From Amyelois transitella (taxonomy: Eukaryota > Arthropoda > Insecta > Lepidoptera > Pyralidae): a DNA stretch of 64,000 nucleotides. The notes below the pieces were generated by a model, which searched no databases, was not told the DNA's origin, and saw nothing but the letters and a program-made list of their open reading frames with translations. Position 1 is the stretch's first letter; every line of letters begins with the position of its first letter. The position numbers and the translations under genes were made by a program. This document shows, piece after piece, positions 31,218-63,027 of the stretch. The DNA is taken from contig NC_083535.1 in NCBI RefSeq assembly GCF_032362555.1, forward strand, positions 868,001-932,000. The letters are read 5' to 3'.

Positions 31218-31719
31218 TGTTAACATAAATATCAAAGATTTAAGCTAATCAAAAAAGATTTTTTCATTATAATGATACTTAAATGATCAATCCTATTGAC
31301 TCACTCACTCTCACCCACTCCTGCGCCAAATAAGCCGAGGAGGTAAGTACATACGAGTAGTTCAATATTTTTTTTTTGCAATTACCCCATTTGAAAATCG
31401 AACAGGAACCTAGAAAACGCAACGTCTCCACTAGCATTAGCGAACGACATAATTCGGTGCATTCGATTTACGACTTCCAGATTGCGTAAAAACTGGCCGG
31501 TAACAAAATAAAAAAAAAACAAACAGTTGCACGCAGCCGCCTATAAAGAGCAAGTTATCCACAATTTAATTACATTCGGTATTTTCGTTAGAGTGGCAAG
31601 ACCGCCGGCGGCGGCGCAGCGGTGGCCGTTTCCACCAATTAGATTGATGGAAAAAGCGGTAACGAGACTCGAATTCATCGTTTACCTGGATGACATATTG
31701 ATGTAATTTCATTAGTAGG
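31218..31719. other. Unique DNA left of the pogo element, with a GC-rich island
   Basis: 31430-31690 is repeat-free (GACCGCCGGCGGCGGCGCAG, CCAATTAGATTGATGG with two ATTA/TAAT cores). Candidate regulatory DNA. Confidence 0.35.
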
Positions 31720-31721
31720 TA

Positions 31722-31763
31722 GGGTACGGCCACCAGTAGTCAGCCCCGCACCAGTGGTCAGCC
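31722..31763. repeat. Left terminal inverted repeat plus second motif copy
   Basis: Motif copies at 31733-31745 (CCAGTAGTCAGCC) and 31751-31763 (CCAGTGGTCAGCC). The right end has only the first, so the left end carries an extra unit. Confidence 0.9.
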
Positions 31764-31805
31764 TTTTCCGGCTAATATCCTATAAGAATAGCGTTCTATT
31801 GCAAA

Positions 31806-31987
31806 TAATCCAATCAGGTCACTTTTGAAAAAGGCTTTGGCTTCTTATTGGTCAGTTCGGAAGATCAGAATGACGCCACGCGGTTGCAAGAAATAGTATT
31901 CGGGTTCCATTTCAACGTTGTCACTTGGCGAGTGAAGAGGCGGCGTGCGCGCTAAAATTTTCTTAGTGGGAGGTGTCCGTGAAGAAG
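31806..31987 (+). promoter_or_regulatory. Probable transposase promoter and 5' UTR exon
   Basis: CCAATCA at about 31810 and an inverted CCAAT (TTATTGGTCAG) at about 31855 precede a segment ending GTGAAGAAG|GTGAGT, a strong donor at 31987/31988. Transcription start not determined. Confidence 0.5.
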
Positions 31988-32458
31988 GTGAGTTATTGTG
32001 ATTTCTTATTAACTTTTATATCATGTCTTATTAAAATATACTCGATGTACATTTTTCACGTCAAAATCAAATAAGTAATATAACAGTTTCTTTATAGTTA
32101 TTTAAATAATGAGGTGGCTGACTACTGGGTATGCGTTTCTTTTACCTTATCCAGTATTCAGCCACCCCCGGCTGAGTACTGGAATTTACGCATATTTTTA
32201 AATTAAAGTCTTATTGGTATCATTTTAAAATCTGAAATTCATATTTTTATTTAGTATTAACATGCCATACAACATTTCATCAAAAATCCAGTAGTCGGCC
32301 GCCTAACTAGTTTTGTTTAAACCACGGCCGAGTACTGGGAATGGTGAATCCAGTGTTCAGCCATCCGTAACTCACGCTGCTTAATTTATTGGTTTATTTA
32401 ATAAGCCCTTAAATACTAAGTATTTCATTAATTTGTTGGTATTGTTTATTTTTTACAG
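31988..32458 (+). other. Predicted 5' UTR intron of the transposase, containing six 13-bp motifs
   Basis: Donor AAG|GTGAGT, acceptor ATTTTTTACAG six bases before the ATG. Motif copies (consensus GGCTGASTACTGG): 32116-32128 (+), 32151-32163 (-), 32170-32182 (+), 32288-32300 (-), 32326-32338 (+), 32350-32362 (-). Orientation alternates strictly. Confidence 0.6.
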
Positions 32459-32464
32459 TTCCAT

Positions 32465-34906
32465 ATGTCTCTTTCGAGACCCATATTACAATACCCCGAA
32501 GAGAAACTTACTCAAGCTTTAGAAGCTATTAGAAATGGCATGTCTATTAGAGAAGCTAGTAGAAACTATGGGGTTCCTCGAGGCACAATTCAAGATAGAC
32601 TTCATCTACGAGTTCCTGAAGGGCCTAGAAAAATGGGTCCAGACTCCGTCCTTAACAAATTAGAAGAAGCAGAAATTGCAACGTGGTTGAAAGAGATTGC
32701 AACTTGTGGTTTCGGAATGAAACCTGACAACCTACTTAATACTGTCCAGGATATGATGATAGAAGACGGCAGGCCTAACCCGTTTGTAAATGGAAGACCA
32801 GGCAAGAAGTGGATGAATTCTTTTTTCAGACGTAACAATATGTTTTCAATGAGAACACCTGAAGCTATTTCAAAGGGAAGGGCAGTAATAACTGAAGAGA
32901 GTATAAGAAAGTGGTTTGAGAAACTCACAGATTATCTAAGGGAAAATCAAGCACTCGACGTGTTAGAGGACTCAAAAAGAATTTTAAACGGTGACGAAAC
33001 AAGCTTCATGCTATGCCCAAAAACTGGAAAAGTGATAGCGCCCAGAGGATATAAAAATGTATACCAAATAGTAAAGGGCAAAGAAAAGGAAGCAGTCACG
33101 GTTTTAGCTTTTTTTTCCGCTATGGGCGATATTTTACCTCCCTGTGTAGTTTTTCCGTACATCAGACCCCCCAAAGATGTTATAAATAGTATGCCTGATG
33201 GTTGGTTTCTCGGCAAATCTGACACTGGTTGGATGAAGGCAGACATTTTCTTCGATTATATTTCTAAATGTCTATCCAAGTGGATAGATGAAAACAAAAT
33301 GAAAAAACCAGTGCTGGTTTTTGTCGACGGTCACAAAACTCACATGACAATGAAGCTGAGTAAATACTGTCATGAAAATAACATCATTTTGTACGCACTA
33401 CCACCTAATACAACACATATGATGCAACCAGCAGATGTTAGCGTTTTTAAACCACTGAAATCTGAATGGGCAAAAACGGTTCATGAGTGGTGTTCACAGC
33501 CACAAAACGCTAACACTGTGTTGACAAAATCTTCATTCTGTCCATTATTGGAAAAAGTATTAAGCAAAGAATCTCTGAATCAAGCCATCAAAAATGGATT
33601 CCGTAAGTGTGGCCTTTTTCCATTCGATCCAAATGCAGTCGACTACTCAAAATGCGTGCAAAATATTTTAGAGAAAATTCATGCACCTGCCAGAAAGACA
33701 ACTTCACCAAGGCAGTTCAAAAAAAGAGATTTCGACATAGCATCAAAAATTATAAAGCATTTGGGAAATGATTTGACTGCAAGAGGAGTTGATGTGAATA
33801 TTGTACTCGAAATCGTTGAAAATGCGAAACAGGTTGAAGCATTAAATAATTCAGTAAGTAGTAATACTACAGAGAGAACAGTTGGAGATAATGAACAAAG
33901 CGTAATATTTGAGGAAAGAACAGAACCTGGATTGACAGTAACGAATGCCAGACCTATTATCAATGAAACTGAAATAAATGGAGCCAAAGAAGAATTACAC
34001 GTTATAAACACTGAAGAAGAAAATAAAAACAAAAAAAAGACTGAAATAAAAAGTGATATAACTAGGATATATAATAAAGAAGTAGATAAACGTAGAATAA
34101 GTACATCACCGTCCGAAGTACTAGATACTAATAGTTTAAATAATATGACACTTGGCGATCTTACTTTTATCAACAATAATTTACTGGACGATGCTATTCA
34201 TGTAAGCACATTTGAGGTCAAAGATAATACAATATTAGTACCCATTGGAGACAACTCTCCGATGTCAAGAAGTGAACCGACGTATTACCAAAAACCTAAG
34301 ACTGATTCTGTGATACTCATTCGATCACCGAAAGTATCACCTTTTGTTCGAAAGCATCTTATTATTCCATCACCTATAAAGAAAACCGCATCTCCTAGAG
34401 TAATGAACAGAATTGGAGCAATATCGTCTGAAGAATGGAGGCAATTTGAAATTATGAAAGAGGATGAGAAACAAAAAAAGAAACATGCCATTGAAGAAAG
34501 AAAGTTACAGAGAAAGAAAAATAAAGAAGAAAAGCAAAAGCAGAAAAATGAAACCAAGAAAAATAAAGCTGTGAATTCTATCAAACGTAAAGTAAAAGAA
34601 CTTAATACAAAAAAGAAAATTGATGACTCTGATCCAGAATTCATAATGAAAAGTATTAAAAAAAGAAAATTAAATGATATGAAAGAAAGAAAAGGAGAAG
34701 AAGCAGAGCAGACTAAATGTGATCCAGAGAAAGCTAAACCAAATAAGATTAAAATCCTCAGTGATATAGACATAACACCTGGAACTTCTGTGAAAGAAAC
34801 TAATAAAGAAAATATAGTTCTGAAAAAAATGGTTAATCGTAGAGAAACCTTTAGAAATGAAGAAGAACTTCAGAATTTTTTAAATAGTGATTTTAATGAT
34901 GAATAA
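32465..34906 (+). CDS. pogo-type transposase, 813 aa, intact
   Basis: Cuts and pastes its own element through terminal repeats. Residues 10-47: pipsqueak-type helix-turn-helix (ALEAIRNGMSIREASRNYGV). 60-130: CENP-B/Tc5-type DNA-binding domain ending GKKWMNSFFRRN. 172-345: DDE_1 catalytic domain; the triad is D177 (NGDETS), D288 (FVDGHKTH) and D324 (QPADVSVFKPL), with 35 residues between the last two (DD35D). 378-391: family motif GFRKCGLFPFDPNA. 400-813: long tail, basic and Lys/Glu-rich at 655-745 (likely coiled coil, nuclear signals KRKVKELNTKKK, KKRKL). Longer than typical pogo/Tigger transposases (about 500-600 aa). All catalytic residues present. The start is the first ATG after the predicted splice acceptor. 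AATAAA at 35156. Confidence 0.95.
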   Translation: MSLSRPILQYPEEKLTQALEAIRNGMSIREASRNYGVPRGTIQDRLHLRVPEGPRKMGPDSVLNKLEEAEIATWLKEIATCGFGMKPDNLLNTVQDMMIEDGRPNPFVNGRPGKKWMNSFFRRNNMFSMRTPEAISKGRAVITEESIRKWFEKLTDYLRENQALDVLEDSKRILNGDETSFMLCPKTGKVIAPRGYKNVYQIVKGKEKEAVTVLAFFSAMGDILPPCVVFPYIRPPKDVINSMPDGWFLGKSDTGWMKADIFFDYISKCLSKWIDENKMKKPVLVFVDGHKTHMTMKLSKYCHENNIILYALPPNTTHMMQPADVSVFKPLKSEWAKTVHEWCSQPQNANTVLTKSSFCPLLEKVLSKESLNQAIKNGFRKCGLFPFDPNAVDYSKCVQNILEKIHAPARKTTSPRQFKKRDFDIASKIIKHLGNDLTARGVDVNIVLEIVENAKQVEALNNSVSSNTTERTVGDNEQSVIFEERTEPGLTVTNARPIINETEINGAKEELHVINTEEENKNKKKTEIKSDITRIYNKEVDKRRISTSPSEVLDTNSLNNMTLGDLTFINNNLLDDAIHVSTFEVKDNTILVPIGDNSPMSRSEPTYYQKPKTDSVILIRSPKVSPFVRKHLIIPSPIKKTASPRVMNRIGAISSEEWRQFEIMKEDEKQKKKHAIEERKLQRKKNKEEKQKQKNETKKNKAVNSIKRKVKELNTKKKIDDSDPEFIMKSIKKRKLNDMKERKGEEAEQTKCDPEKAKPNKIKILSDIDITPGTSVKETNKENIVLKKMVNRRETFRNEEELQNFLNSDFNDE

Positions 34907-35013
34907 GTTGATAATGTTTCTTGTGATATTAGAGTACCTACTAAGGTCTTATTATTTAATTAATTTGATTAAGTTCCTACATAATTAAGCTTAAAACAAT
35001 CGATCTCAGGAGA

Positions 35014-35069
35014 GGCTGAGTACTGGTAGCTACATGGCCGAGTGCTGGCTTGTGCCGGCTGAGTACTGG
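35014..35069 (+). repeat. Right subterminal motif cluster
   Basis: GGCTGAGTACTGG 35014-35026, GGCCGAGTGCTGG 35036-35048, GGCTGAGTACTGG 35057-35069, spaced 22 and 21 bp (about two helical turns), all in one direction. Confidence 0.88.
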
Positions 35070-35155
35070 GGAAAAGTGCCTTATTTTGATAAATATTTTA
35101 TTTTCCATACTTATTAAGCAAAATTAAGTTATTTGTTAATTGCTTATCAAAGTTT

Positions 35156-35161
35156 AATAAA
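35156..35161 (+). terminator. Transposase poly(A) signal
   Basis: AATAAA 250 bp after the stop codon and inside the element. Confidence 0.6.
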
Positions 35162-35247
35162 TGATTAAGTATATAAGTACAAAAGGTTTTTTATTACTAT
35201 TTTCAATAATTTTCTATACATATTTAAATTTACACTTTTCGCTAAAA

Positions 35248-35271
35248 GGCTGACTACTGGTACCCGTACCC
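35248..35271. repeat. Right terminal inverted repeat
   Basis: GGCTGACTACTGGTACCCGT then ACCC; the motif copy is at 35248-35260. Confidence 0.9.
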
Positions 35272-35273
35272 TA

Positions 35274-36327
35274 CTAATTAATTTAGCACAATTTTGAATT
35301 TTTACAAAATTGTGAATAATTACAATAAGTCATCATGCTTAACTTCCAATTGCCACGATATCTGCATACTTCATTCGCTTCATCTCCACATTCATAACAG
35401 TTTATTAAGCTTATATCCCTTTATTAACTTCTACAATTCGCAAGCAGCTATCTGAAGCGACTGTTTAAGTTAATCATCCCATTCGTTTTTATTCGTCCCA
35501 CAAACTATATTGTGACATGAAGATAAGCCTGGATTAAATATGGCGGCTAACGTTTCCACGATGTTTTACATTAGATAGATTAACTCGTTGACAATGTTTT
35601 GATTTGGTTAAGCAAACATCTGTACTGTACAAGACTATTTAACTTTTTTTCTTCAATGATAATTTATCAAAAAGAAAGTATCTATAACCTCTCTCTACAG
35701 TGCAATAACTTTCATATCAACAAAACGTAAAATCGATCGGGTATCTCCGTAACATAGCTACGTACTATTACTATATAATATACGTACATATATAACGATG
35801 GAGAAATTTACTTACGGCTGGGTACATAAGGGTGAGTTGGCAAACATCACGGTTCCCTACGCACAAGGCGGCTTCAACTAGGGTTGGCGGGAATCGGCAA
35901 ATATTTGCCCTTAGGGCCGGCAAGCCGCCGACTAATTGTTCTTTAAATACCTCAAACCCACCCTACAACAAACACATCTCAAATCGATTATACCAACTCC
36001 TACCATTTTTTTTATAAAGGCAACACCGTTCAGCTCACTGAACTCGTATTTCGAATTTATCACCAAATATTTGTCCGGCGGAGTTATACGCCTGTGCTAA
36101 CAATTAGACCGCATTTTTTGTTTATTAATTGGTTTGGCTTGTTAACCCAAGCCTTGTTTGTGAAGGCTGGGCACTGCTCTATATATTTAAAATGTCGGTT
36201 AGTTACGACATGTATACGTCAGGTAGGAAAGAATACGAGTGAACCTAGTAATAAGTACCTAATATAGAATTATCTAAGTATATATACGTTGTCCGATAAT
36301 CGTACTTAATACTTAACTAACGTAATA
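35274..36327. other. Unique intergenic DNA right of the pogo element
   Basis: 35346-35399 is a minus LINE-B fragment (CACGATATCTGCATACTTCA). 35820-35945 is a GC-richer patch with TTGGCGGGAA and a perfect 14-bp palindrome GGCAAATATTTGCC (35896-35909). No gene. Confidence 0.4.
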
Positions 36328-57596: not shown

Positions 57597-58601
57597 TCAG
57601 TAGGACTTATGCGCGGGCGCCGGTGCAGCGGCGACGCACGCCTGGTGGTGGTAATATGACGGCGCCGGCGTGCGGTAGTGGTGATGAGGCGGAGAGGCCC
57701 GGTACGCGTCCGGGCCCGGAGACCCGCCTCGGAATCCCGCCAGCTGACAACTGGGCGGCTCGAAGAGATCTCGAAAAGCAGGCGGTAACTGTTCCGCTGG
57801 AGGCTCGGGCGCCGCGTACCAGCCGGAAGTGGCCGCTCGGAACTCCTCGGCCGCGAGAGAATATGGCTGCGGCGAGCAGTACACGGCAGAGGGCGGCAGC
57901 CGATCGCTAAAGTCATCTAGAGTATCGGCTGGTTTTTCATAGCGCGCACATTCAGCGCCCGGTTCTCGTTTCGGTCTACACTCAAATATTCTAGGCTTTA
58001 CGTCGGGCTTCACGTCCCGGGTCTGGCCGAGCGCGTCCGCCGCACTGAGCGCCTCCTGCGCCGCCAGGGCTTCCTGCGCCTGCTGCAACTGCTGCTGTCT
58101 TTTCAGAGCCTCCTCTTTCTCTTTCAAGGCGTCTTTCTTCTTAAACCGACGCCGCCGCCGGAGATACGACCCGTTGTCGAACATGTTATAAGAATCCGGA
58201 TCGAGCGTCCAGTAACTTCCCTTTCCAGGTTTTTTATCGTCTCTCGCCACTTTCACAAAGCACTCGTTTAGGCTCAAATTGTGTCTTATGGAATTTTGCC
58301 AGCCTTGTTTGTTCTCTCTATAATAGGGGAACCGCTCCATTATGAATTGATAAATGCCGTTGAGAGTGATTCTCCTGTCGGGCGCGTTCTGTATGGCCAT
58401 GGCAATGAGCGCTATGTAGGAATAGGGGGGTTTGACCATGTCCTTAGGGGCGCCGACGTGCTGCTGATGCGGGTGTAGGTAGGGAGCTCCATAGCCGTAC
58501 CGATACTGCTCGTAGGCGTAGGGGGTGACTCCTGCGGAGTAGCCGCCGGCGGCTCCTCCGCGGTACGCGTATGGGCTCTGTTCGCCGAACAACGCGTGCA
58601 T
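57597..58601 (-). CDS. croc: crocodile / FoxC forkhead transcription factor, intronless, 334 aa
   Basis: Forkhead (winged-helix) activator; in Drosophila croc acts in head and foregut development (family knowledge). The ATG at 58601-58599 opens [13 protein letters not shown], the FoxC-type N-terminus. The frame stays open for 8 codons upstream but with no ATG (only GTG at 58625), so this start is chosen. In this numbering the forkhead domain is residues 56-150 ([17 protein letters not shown] ... [17 protein letters not shown]), with recognition helix [15 protein letters not shown] at 101-115. A Glu/Gln/Ala coiled stretch follows, then a low-complexity Pro/Ala/Tyr C-terminus. One exon, as in fly croc. 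Stop TGA at 57599-57597. GC-rich against an AT-rich surround. Confidence 0.93.
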
Positions 58602-59758
58602 GCTGCCGGACACGTTCACTGCCACACCATGCCCGAGCGCGGCCGCGGAACCCTCGCGCGTTGCTCCTTCGGCAACAAAATGACGACTGACTGATTTTGT
58701 TTGGATTCACAACAAGCCCCGTTTACATAGCGGACGCTAAACGAGAGACGAATGAGCGGGATTGTGGGCGCGTCCGGGTGACGCAGCCTCGCTCCGCCTC
58801 CGATGTGTGGGCTCATTCGGGCTTCACGAAGCGCCATGTGTCGGTGTCTCGCTCTTGCGGCCCCGATCTTCGCTGGGTGGGACTCCGGTCCGAGGGCGGC
58901 GCAGGCCCGCGTGGCCCTTCCCCTTTGCGGCTGCACCCTAATGTATCCATTGTGGCGACCGCTGACAATAGGACCACAAAGCCGGTGCACTCAACGCTGA
59001 CATACTTATCCATTTGTAGAAATTTATTAATAAGCTGTCAATCAACCCTAGAAACGGGCATCCCTTGAAAAATAACACATTTCGAAACCAAATAATAAAT
59101 AGGTGTTTATTTAACGCCAATGACGAAAATGTGTCGATGTGACATATAATTTGAACTTTGTAAAGCACAATAAATGGTGGTCATTTAAAAAAGAATAACA
59201 ATACCGTGGTTATCCAAAACAATGAAGAAGTAAGTCCTAGGTACTAACTAATCCTAATAGTTGTACCTACTTACCTACGCTGTAAACTAATGAGGTAAAT
59301 TTTAAAATTAATTTTAAGCAATATAAAGTTACTTACTAAATAAACAGCATTTTCTTTTTTACTTTTTTCTTGACACATTTAATATCTATGACTAATGTTA
59401 TCTAGGTAATAGTTATTGCCCAATATTTTAAAGTAAATACTCTGGTTATTAAGACCTAAGAGTAGCTATCTACCTATTAGTATGCTCCTCGACATTTTAG
59501 TTTTGTTGTCTTCGGCCAATATTTTGATTTTTATTAACCAATATCAAAAAAAGGAGATTTCTCAATTCAACCGTTAGGTTGGAGTAGTCGGAGGAACTCT
59601 TCCAATTTTTATATATTATAGTATTTTTATATTTTGATTACCTATATTTTATTAATTACATAGTGATGGTATCAGATTTTTGTATCTGCTCTAGCCATCC
59701 TATGTGAGATCTGAAATAAAAAATACTTGTAAAAAAATTGTATTAAATAAATATTAAA
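58602..59758. promoter_or_regulatory. Upstream region of crocodile
   Basis: 58602-59000 is GC-rich and probably holds 5' UTR and core promoter; transcription start not located. 59000-59758 is AT-rich and unique. No mobile element seen. Frames here (for example 58697-59068) show no domain. Confidence 0.5.
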
Positions 59759-61774: not shown

Positions 61775-63027
61775 GATTATCAAAAGTTTCAATGGGATGC
61801 TCAAGAGGGATTTCGAAAGGGAATGGGATGTACTGATCAGGTCTTTTCTTTGCGGTGCATAGCCGAAAAGTTTTGGCCAAGAGTCAAAAAGTCTATTGCA
61901 CATTCGTGGATTTGGAAAAGGCCTATGACAGAGTTTAGAGGAATGAATTGTGGTCAGCACTTTCTATGCATGGGGTGAGCAGTCTCTTAATACGAGCACT
62001 GAAATCCTTATATGAGGATTCTAGTACTTGTGTCAGGATAAACGGAGCGCACACTGAGTGGTTTAAGATTGAGAAAGGCGTTAGGCAAGGATGTGTTGCG
62101 TCACCGTGGCTGTTCAACCTAATTATGGGTAGTTGTTTGACAGATTTGAAAGAGTCTGAAAGTGGATTAAGGATGAATGAGTTACTCATCAAATGTCTGC
62201 TCTATGCCGACGATCAGGTTATACTGGCGTCATCAGCGGAGGAGTTACAGGAGATGGTAAACTGTATGCATGAAGTTTTAAAAGAGAAAGGAATGAAAGT
62301 GAACGTAAGTAAAACTAAAACACTGGTTTTTGAAATGGAGAAAGAAATGACAGCATGTAATATTTTGATTGGAGAAGAAAAAGTGTAGCAAATGAAAGAG
62401 TCTGTATATCTAGGATCAAAGTTTACATCAGATGGCAAGTGTGATAGTGGTATTGAAAGAAGAGTGAACGCGGGGAACATGGTGAATGGAGCTTTGCATG
62501 CCTTTATGAGCAGTCAGAAACTATCCATAAAGGCTCGACTGGCTGTGCATTGGGGCGTGTTGGTCCCGACATTAATGTATGGGAGTGAAAGTTGGGTATG
62601 GCAAAAGAAGCACGAAAGCAGAATAAATGCAGTGGAAATGAGAGCGTTAAGGAGTATGTTGGGTGTGAAATTGAGTGACCGAATAAGGAACAGCGTGATA
62701 AGGGAATGTTGTGATGTGAAAGAAGATGTAGTTACAGGAATAGAAAAGGGTATGTTGAGATGGTTCGATCATATGGAGAGGATGAATGATAACAGGTTGA
62801 CCAAGCAGATATACAAGGAGAGTGTGGAGGACAATGTCGGAGTGGGAAGACCTAGACGAACGTATCTTGATCAAATTAAGGACGGACCCGAAACCGCCGA
62901 GCTTGCTTGAAGAGAGTTATGAATGTGGAAGAAGCGAAGGAAATATGCAGAGATCGTGGCAAGTGGAAAGAGGTGGTCTCTGCTTACCCCTCCGGGAAAG
63001 AGGCGTGATTTTATGTATGTATGTTCA
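61775..63027 (+). pseudogene. LINE-B: 5'-truncated, broken non-LTR retrotransposon (reverse transcriptase)
   Basis: Reverse-transcriptase blocks in order: FRKGMGCTDQVFSLRCIAEK, DLEKAYDRV, RINGAHTEWFKIEKGVRQGC, the catalytic LLYADDQVILASS (about 62200), TLMYGSESW, MLRWFDHMERMNDNRLTKQI, VGRPRRTYLDQIKDG. Broken by a frameshift near 61880, an in-frame TAG at 61936, a TAG at 62386, and a deletion near 62884 that shifts the frame before the normal end. The 3' end has the CCCCTCCGGG hairpin and (ATGT)n. The endonuclease half is missing. The layout resembles lepidopteran 'endonuclease-reverse transcriptase' LINEs; clade not assigned. Confidence 0.88.

Follow-up and report, generated by a model that had tools for sequence, protein, structure and literature searches.

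The window analysed here (64,000 nucleotides of contig NC_083535.1 from the lepidopteran Amyelois transitella; all positions below refer to this whole stretch) contains a transposon which, by its transposase and its ends, is a member of the pogo superfamily, and which represents family A in our comparison. The non-coding DNA on either side of its transposase open reading frame (ORF) holds 12 copies of a 13-bp motif, GGCTGASTACTGG: six exact, four with one mismatch and two with two mismatches (Table 1). The array was retained in other copies of the element, and similar positions were occupied by different motifs in 11 transposon families. Together these findings support a putative series of transposase binding sites.

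An earlier note on this DNA had listed the 12 copies and placed the outermost ones within the terminal repeats. All 12 were located at the positions given, with sites 1 and 12 inside the 24-bp terminal inverted repeats (TIRs). The asymmetry of the array was also as described (eight sites left, four right), and so was the absence of the motif from the coding region. Shuffled sequence, the control proposed in that note, was nearly devoid of the motif. With up to two mismatches permitted and 200 dinucleotide shuffles, the left non-coding part had 8 sites (shuffle mean 0.01), the right non-coding part had 4 (mean 0) and the coding region had none (mean 0.025). At this threshold, 12 of the 13 matches in the window fell inside the element. 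With three mismatches permitted the whole-window count would hardly stand out from the shuffles (20 matches against a mean of 11.4; the largest shuffle had 22, and one in 100 reached 20). The spacing of about 21 bp ascribed to the right copies applied to three of them (21-22 bp) but not to the fourth, which lies in the TIR 191 bp away.

The second left copy is a repeat of the TIR site and lies outside the 24-bp TIR. The inner clusters are found about 190 bp inward of the right TIR site and about 365 bp inward of the second left site, reaching up to about 640 nt inside the element. Nine of the 13 motif columns (GGC, GA and CTGG) were invariant in 12/12 copies, while positions 4 and 7-9 varied, and no column among the 15 on each side of the motif exceeded 0.70 bit. 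Since the invariant blocks flank variable positions and the edges are sharp, the motif appears to be bipartite (GGCYGA-STA-CTGG), as two linked helix-turn-helix units would predict.

Five full-length copies of family A were found in the genome, four of them without internal stops. Those on C17, C20, C12 and C32 differed from the window copy by 6, 6, 18 and 13 mismatches, respectively, over 3,554 nt including both TAs. Alignment of the other copies, which the earlier note had proposed as a check, showed the array to be kept, with all 12 sites present in 5/5 full-length copies. Three internally deleted copies (L016, L034 and L035) retained 12, 12 and 11 sites (up to two mismatches), and a partial copy (L014) had the 8 left sites. 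The three deleted copies have one coding-region deletion in common. They probably moved in trans, since they are inserted at different places and two of them have TA on both sides.

A search of the genome gave 55 matches, from which 38 regions were taken (L045: 10,000 bases). Ten further families (B, C, D, E, G, H, I, J, K and M) were delimited at both ends, giving a total of 11 with family A. The ends were sought by the pattern TA(A/G)GGT, and the common end sequence is thus partly a product of construction. Comparison of copies confirmed both ends, within a few nucleotides, in six families (A, B, D, E, G and H) and one end in two others (the right of C, the left of I). For J, K and M both ends were placed by TIR similarity, as were the remaining ends of C (left) and I (right). 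L046 and L047 were truncated copies of family I, and L036 was not delimited. For families F and N the scan covered the left end, with the F coordinates one low. In family F the search for a right end bearing the usual TA(A/G)GGT gave none, and homology in L032 and L033 ends near TTATTATAGGATTATAG; its left-end site positions (L032, L033 and L044) resemble those of family E. A family N element or fragment at C32:4066000-4080499 (L019 and L045) recurred head to tail every 3,249 bp or so, and the stretches compared were 100% identical.

In all 11 families the representative element had a transposase ORF without an internal stop, with a DD35D triad in ten families and DD36D in M. The DNA-binding domains were 21-65% identical over all family pairs. 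Each element had a family-specific sequence, part of its TIR, at about nt 12-27 from the end. In an unseeded count (seven families, six shuffles each) the most repeated 12-mers of the seven elements were this TIR sequence, and A, C, D, E and G stood out clearly. We then scanned whole elements with a position matrix seeded with the two TIR segments only, allowing 0.3 false matches per element. The 11 families yielded 118 non-coding and 6 coding sites, with 6-12 non-coding sites per family. When the non-coding interiors were shuffled, with the coding region and ends kept, a mean of 2.0-2.3 sites remained, essentially the TIR seeds, and the maximum was 5 (131 replicates, with 20 threshold shuffles instead of 40). 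Of 80 trials with single seeds from elsewhere in four elements, 78 gave 1-5 sites. The remaining two gave 11 and 12, the pattern expected if the seed had landed on a real site. The left TIR site of family C was missed by the scan, the TIR being one base longer there. A cruder 13-mer scan (up to three mismatches) gave a similar but noisy picture: family C had 14 matches against a shuffle mean of 4.45 and a maximum of 11, and nine coding-region matches were found over the 11 families, four of them in C. The motifs included CCAGTacTCaGCC (A), CCAatnGtcGACCA (B), GTTTnCGTCCA (C), CCtAatACGGnGGT (E) and GGtAataCCGGTC (H); those of A, D and I were fairly similar to each other.

Site positions are given as the start of a 16-nt window counted from each end, with the TA as 1-2. 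At the right end, sites at 12 and at 199-209 were found in 11/11 families. In shuffled elements, a site at 199-209 occurred in a mean of 0.01 families. The two sites had the same orientation in ten families and were opposite in G. Families A, B and C agreed within 1 nt at four right sites (12, 202-203, 223-224 and 245-246), and in these three families the sites beyond the right interval are about two helical turns apart. Scored within 8 nt in either orientation, the left slots were filled as follows among the 11 families: 12 in ten, 30 in nine, 394 and 428 in eight each, and 447 and 556 in five each. On the right, slot 223 was filled in 5/11 and slot 246 in 7/11 families. Start to start, the right interval had a mean of 188.7 nt with a standard deviation (SD) of 5.3 nt (11 families), and the left interval had a mean of 365.4 nt with an SD of 17 nt (10 families). 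The right gap was AT-rich in all 11 families (GC content 0.18-0.34).

Coincident positions were counted as pairs of sites within 6 nt and in the same orientation, excluding sites at 45 or less, and compared with 5,000 random shifts. The left ends gave 50 coincidences against 10.7 +/- 3.8 expected (36 against 8.3 +/- 3.4 without family D), and the right ends without family D gave 51 against 5.0 +/- 2.7. The p value was 0.0002 in each case, the lowest that 5,000 shifts can give. The left end of family N was scanned after the 11 families had been scored, seeded with its first two sites. Its inner left sites (394, 426, 445, 561, 580 and 602) fell on the slots of K in six of six cases, of A in five, of J in four and of I in three (p 0.015-0.018 each; about 0.015 for A and 0.017 for K). 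With the exception of two short stretches shared by D and I, the non-coding ends could not be aligned between families at E <= 1e-3. Since the slots agree in spite of this and the motifs differ, position appears to have been kept where sequence, the motif included, has not. Unconstrained spacers would be expected to drift through insertions and deletions.

Table 1. Features of the family A element in the window
Feature	Positions	Strand	Remarks
TA target-site duplication, left	31720..31721	.	TA followed by GGGTACGG at both ends; homology between copies stops here
Whole element, 3,550 bp between TAs	31722..35271	+	Full copies on C17, C20, C12 and C32 span the same 3,554 nt with both TAs
Left TIR, 24 bp, with site 1	31722..31745	+	22/24 bp match right TIR
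Site 1 (in left TIR)	31733..31745	-	Exact
Site 2	31751..31763	-	1 mismatch; 18 bp inward of site 1, same orientation
Putative 5' UTR intron	31988..32458	+	Donor AAG/GTGAGT, acceptor TTTTTTACAG; sequence only
Site 3, first left inner cluster	32116..32128	+	Exact
Site 4	32151..32163	-	1 mismatch
Site 5	32170..32182	+	Exact
Site 6, second left inner cluster	32288..32300	-	1 mismatch
Site 7	32326..32338	+	1 mismatch
Site 8	32350..32362	-	2 mismatches
Transposase ORF, 813 aa	32465..34906	+	HTH_psq 12-46, DDE_1 217-351, triad D177 D288 D324 (DD35D)
Site 9, right cluster	35014..35026	+	Exact
Site 10	35036..35048	+	2 mismatches
Site 11	35057..35069	+	Exact
AATAAA	35156..35161	+	Sole A[AT]TAAA between stop codon and right end
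Right TIR, 24 bp, with site 12	35248..35271	-	22/24 bp match left TIR
Site 12 (in right TIR)	35248..35260	+	Exact
TA target-site duplication, right	35272..35273	.	Ends of copies compared

The putative intron in the 5' untranslated region (UTR) is 471 bp long and would contain sites 3-8. A canonical splice donor was present at nt 203-298 in ten of the 11 families, family M being without one there, and a splice acceptor lay directly 5' of the ATG in six. The site-free gap on the left spans the presumed promoter and first exon, and the right cluster sits between the stop codon and AATAAA. Thus, nine of the 12 sites would be transcribed but non-coding, with the other three at the element ends. Elsewhere in the window, a 342-codon ORF with a forkhead domain was found on the minus strand (57597-58625), which we take to resemble FoxC/crocodile, and adjacent ORFs on the plus strand (61948-62910) are presumably reverse transcriptase pieces of a non-long-terminal-repeat retrotransposon.

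The end of the element reads TA followed by GGGTACGG(CC/GT)ACCAGTAGTCAGCC. The inverted repeat ends after about 24-28 bp, and no TIR longer than 200 bp of the inverted repeat/direct repeat (IR/DR) sort was found. TA was present on both sides in seven of eight two-ended copies, the right TA being missing in L035. Without the element, the insertion target in the window would be near-palindromic around the TA (ATTAGTA GG TACTAAT, 31711-31721 plus 35272-35280); in the other insertions compared by eye there was no evident target palindrome. The TA target site and the 24-bp TIR agree with the pogo superfamily, in most families of which the TIR is 40 bp or less according to the available part of PMC7386202. 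The catalytic domain (DDE_1, PF03184, E 5.5e-19), with its three aspartates, likewise places the element in this superfamily of the ITm group. The start of the transposase is consistent with a homologue, P0001 (83% identical), which begins at the same residue. Foldseek matched the catalytic part of an AlphaFold model to transposase structures including Mos1, Sleeping Beauty and SETMAR/Metnase among the best hits; only the catalytic fold was used, as the model was poor overall (mean pLDDT 64.9). A match to the CENP-B structure 1hlv was at chance level (E 1.3) and was rejected.

HTH_psq was well above its cut-off in the window transposase (43.7 bits, cut-off 20.4), and HTH_Tnp_Tc5 was above cut-off in six of the ten sister-family proteins. 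CENP-B_N was found neither in the window protein (E up to 1) nor in the ten sister proteins (E up to 0.1). As outlined in the sections available of PMC7386202, Fot/Fot-like transposases combine HTH_psq and/or HTH_Tnp_Tc5 with DD35D, and pogoR/Tigger transposases have CENP-B_N with HTH_Tnp_Tc5, or HTH_Tnp_Tc5 alone, and neither domain was found in the window protein. Because HTH_psq and DD35D are both present, the element resembles the Fot/Fot-like branch more closely than the CENP-B_N-bearing pogo types, judged by domain content. This qualifies the earlier designation as a "pogo element".

Among 7,991 candidates scored, 292 protein relatives had E <= 0.001. All of the best 120 of these that carried an organism name were from insects, the nearest named one being from the butterfly Brenthis ino (62% identity over 85%). 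Scans of viral_contigs and genome_contigs returned no relatives of the transposase. Of two motif-pair scans of viral_contigs, one returned a single stretch (L001, in which motif matches were counted) and the other none. Several relatives have a C-terminal PHD finger on the transposase, for instance family C (L015, residues 855-908, above the Pfam cut-off), and it is possible that this is a chromatin-reading or targeting module; a Pfam scan found none in the window copy. Part of PMC5371812 reports a PCNA-binding PIP box in Drosophila pogo, and a pattern search found none in the 11 family proteins.

Several known systems share parts of this arrangement. Drosophila pogo belongs with the CENP-B_N-bearing types and carries a pair of sites at each end, the outer one lying about 14 nt in. 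Like the window element it has a two-part helix-turn-helix transposase and a site inside the TIR; here, however, there are 8 + 4 sites, with inner clusters deep inside the element. According to the title of a 1999 report by Wang, Hartswood and Finnegan (NAR 27:455), the pogo transposase recognises a 12-bp site inside the TIR. En/Spm, Ac/Ds, P and hAT elements have dense, asymmetric subterminal motif arrays which are bound by the element's own protein and kept in deletion derivatives; the Ac transposase, to go by a published title, is said to bind subterminal sequences. Their transposases, target sites and motifs are unrelated to those of the window element, and we know of no fixed spacing in them that is common to families with different motifs.

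The window transposase also differs in carrying HTH_psq where those of pogoR and Tigger carry CENP-B_N (PMC7386202, in part). The fungal elements Trem, Aft1 and Tan1 have TIRs made of two 17-bp direct repeats, suggested as recognition sites of the HTH_psq and CENPB domains, which Trem transposases have; some Fot1/Aft1/Tan1/Trem elements also have a C-terminal zinc finger (PMC2836289, available sections). These repeats resemble sites 1 and 2, which are 18 bp apart, but the hosts are fungi and the available text of PMC2836289 mentions no inner clusters. IR/DR elements have two sites in each long TIR, of about 220 bp in Sleeping Beauty (PMC3680223, in part). In Sleeping Beauty and Minos the outer and inner transposase sites have the same orientation within about 220 bp of the end, and a multimeric synaptic complex forms with HMGB1-assisted bending; Sleeping Beauty requires both kinds of site at each of its ends and is assisted by DNA bending (available parts of PMC3680223 and PMC7827188). 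The paired outer and inner right-end sites of the 11 families are similar in kind, apart from the opposite orientation in G. Unlike Sleeping Beauty as there described, the window element has a 24-bp TIR, up to eight sites at one end and a left/right asymmetry. Already known, then, are subterminal arrays, paired sites at pogo ends, repeats within fungal TIRs and ends of the IR/DR kind. In the available portions of the open-access literature, arrays of many sites with conserved spacing were not found described for the pogo superfamily, which is weak evidence of absence.

We consider it likely that the sites bind the element's own transposase and form a scaffold of fixed geometry for end pairing, perhaps with a role in self-regulation as well. 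Binding by the transposase is suggested because the outermost copies lie in the TIR, the deleted copies keep the array, and ten other families carry their own motif in similar slots. A two-part N-terminal DNA-binding domain, HTH_psq plus probably a diverged helix-turn-helix of the CENPB/Tc5 type, would read the 13-bp motif. The outermost sites would put the catalytic domain beside the TA cut site, and the inner clusters would bind additional transposase subunits. Because the right interval is fixed at about 190 bp and the sites beyond it are spaced by helical turns in A, B and C, the ends may fold into a pairing complex of fixed geometry with several transposase subunits. Transposase bound at the left sites would, as a second role, repress its own gene; this is probable because six of them lie in the putative intron just downstream of the presumed promoter. 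As the DNA-binding domain drifts in a lineage, the sites would turn over with it and the positions would stay.

Several observations weigh against this interpretation. The comparative evidence all comes from one genome. In the unseeded count the margin over the shuffles was small in B (6 against 5) and in H (8 against 7), and H was also the weakest family in the seeded scan, with 6 sites against a null maximum of 5. Some slots were incompletely filled (left 394 and 447, right 223 and 246), the left sites of family E were displaced by 14-19 nt, none of the six family N sites fell on family E slots, and the inner left orientations differed in G, H and M. No purifying selection on the sites was detected within family A (nine copies): 5/156 site columns varied, as did 33/956 other non-coding columns (P = 1). 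Pfam detected no HTH_Tnp_Tc5 in the window protein (E up to 1). Motif similarity tracked the identity of the DNA-binding domain (Mantel rho 0.65, p = 0.003), but it tracked that of the catalytic domain too (rho 0.70, p = 0.0006), and the correlation may reflect shared descent only. A specific co-evolution of motif and DNA-binding domain could not be told apart from such descent.

Among other explanations, the inner sites might mainly serve transcriptional self-regulation, with the transposase acting as repressor in the promoter, the intron and the 3' UTR, so that only the TIR sites serve transposition. This would account for six left sites in the putative intron, three right sites between the stop codon and AATAAA, and a left gap over the presumed promoter and first exon. 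We nevertheless regard it as unlikely: the right interval is tighter across families than gene control seems to require, and internally deleted copies without a whole transposase keep the inner sites, though by descent from one deletion. It is less probable still that the two site-free gaps (about 173 and 349 bp) accommodate one and two nucleosomes between bound clusters. The mean left gap is indeed about twice the right one, taking the mean intervals less the 16-nt site, but the left gap is variable (SD 17 nt) and the AT richness of the right gap disfavours nucleosomes and is a better fit to bent or protein-bent DNA. Dense arrays of short motifs in transposons can be host insulator sites, as in gypsy; binding by a common host factor, in an insulator- or enhancer-type array, is very improbable here because the motifs of the 11 families differ within one nucleus and each is also part of its TIR. 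Equally remote is a functionless relic of local duplications, for which one site pair complementary beyond the motif (19-nt arms, 89%), the 18-bp tandem repeat at the left TIR and the undepleted variation of the family A sites could be cited, but the flanks of the 12 copies are largely unrelated and the agreement of positions across families with unalignable non-coding DNA appears already to contradict it.

For the wider proposition that array geometry (distances and many orientations) is a conserved character of the clade, with the site sequence free to diverge, we see the balance as even. If the array does serve as a transposase-bound scaffold for end pairing, it would be a rigid architectural code for joining left and right ends, and one genome would hold 11 or more transposase/end systems which differ in specificity, and may even be mutually orthogonal, while sharing one spacing scaffold. 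Swapping DNA-binding domains, motifs and spacers between these related families of one nucleus allows direct tests, and the families provide many candidate non-cross-reacting transposon systems. The finding is relevant to the way in which CENP-B-like proteins acquired the binding of site arrays, and it addresses how ITm transposases pair the correct ends and how an element can gain new end specificities without being killed by the change. The families would then document, in nature, how protein-DNA recognition changes while the architecture stays fixed.

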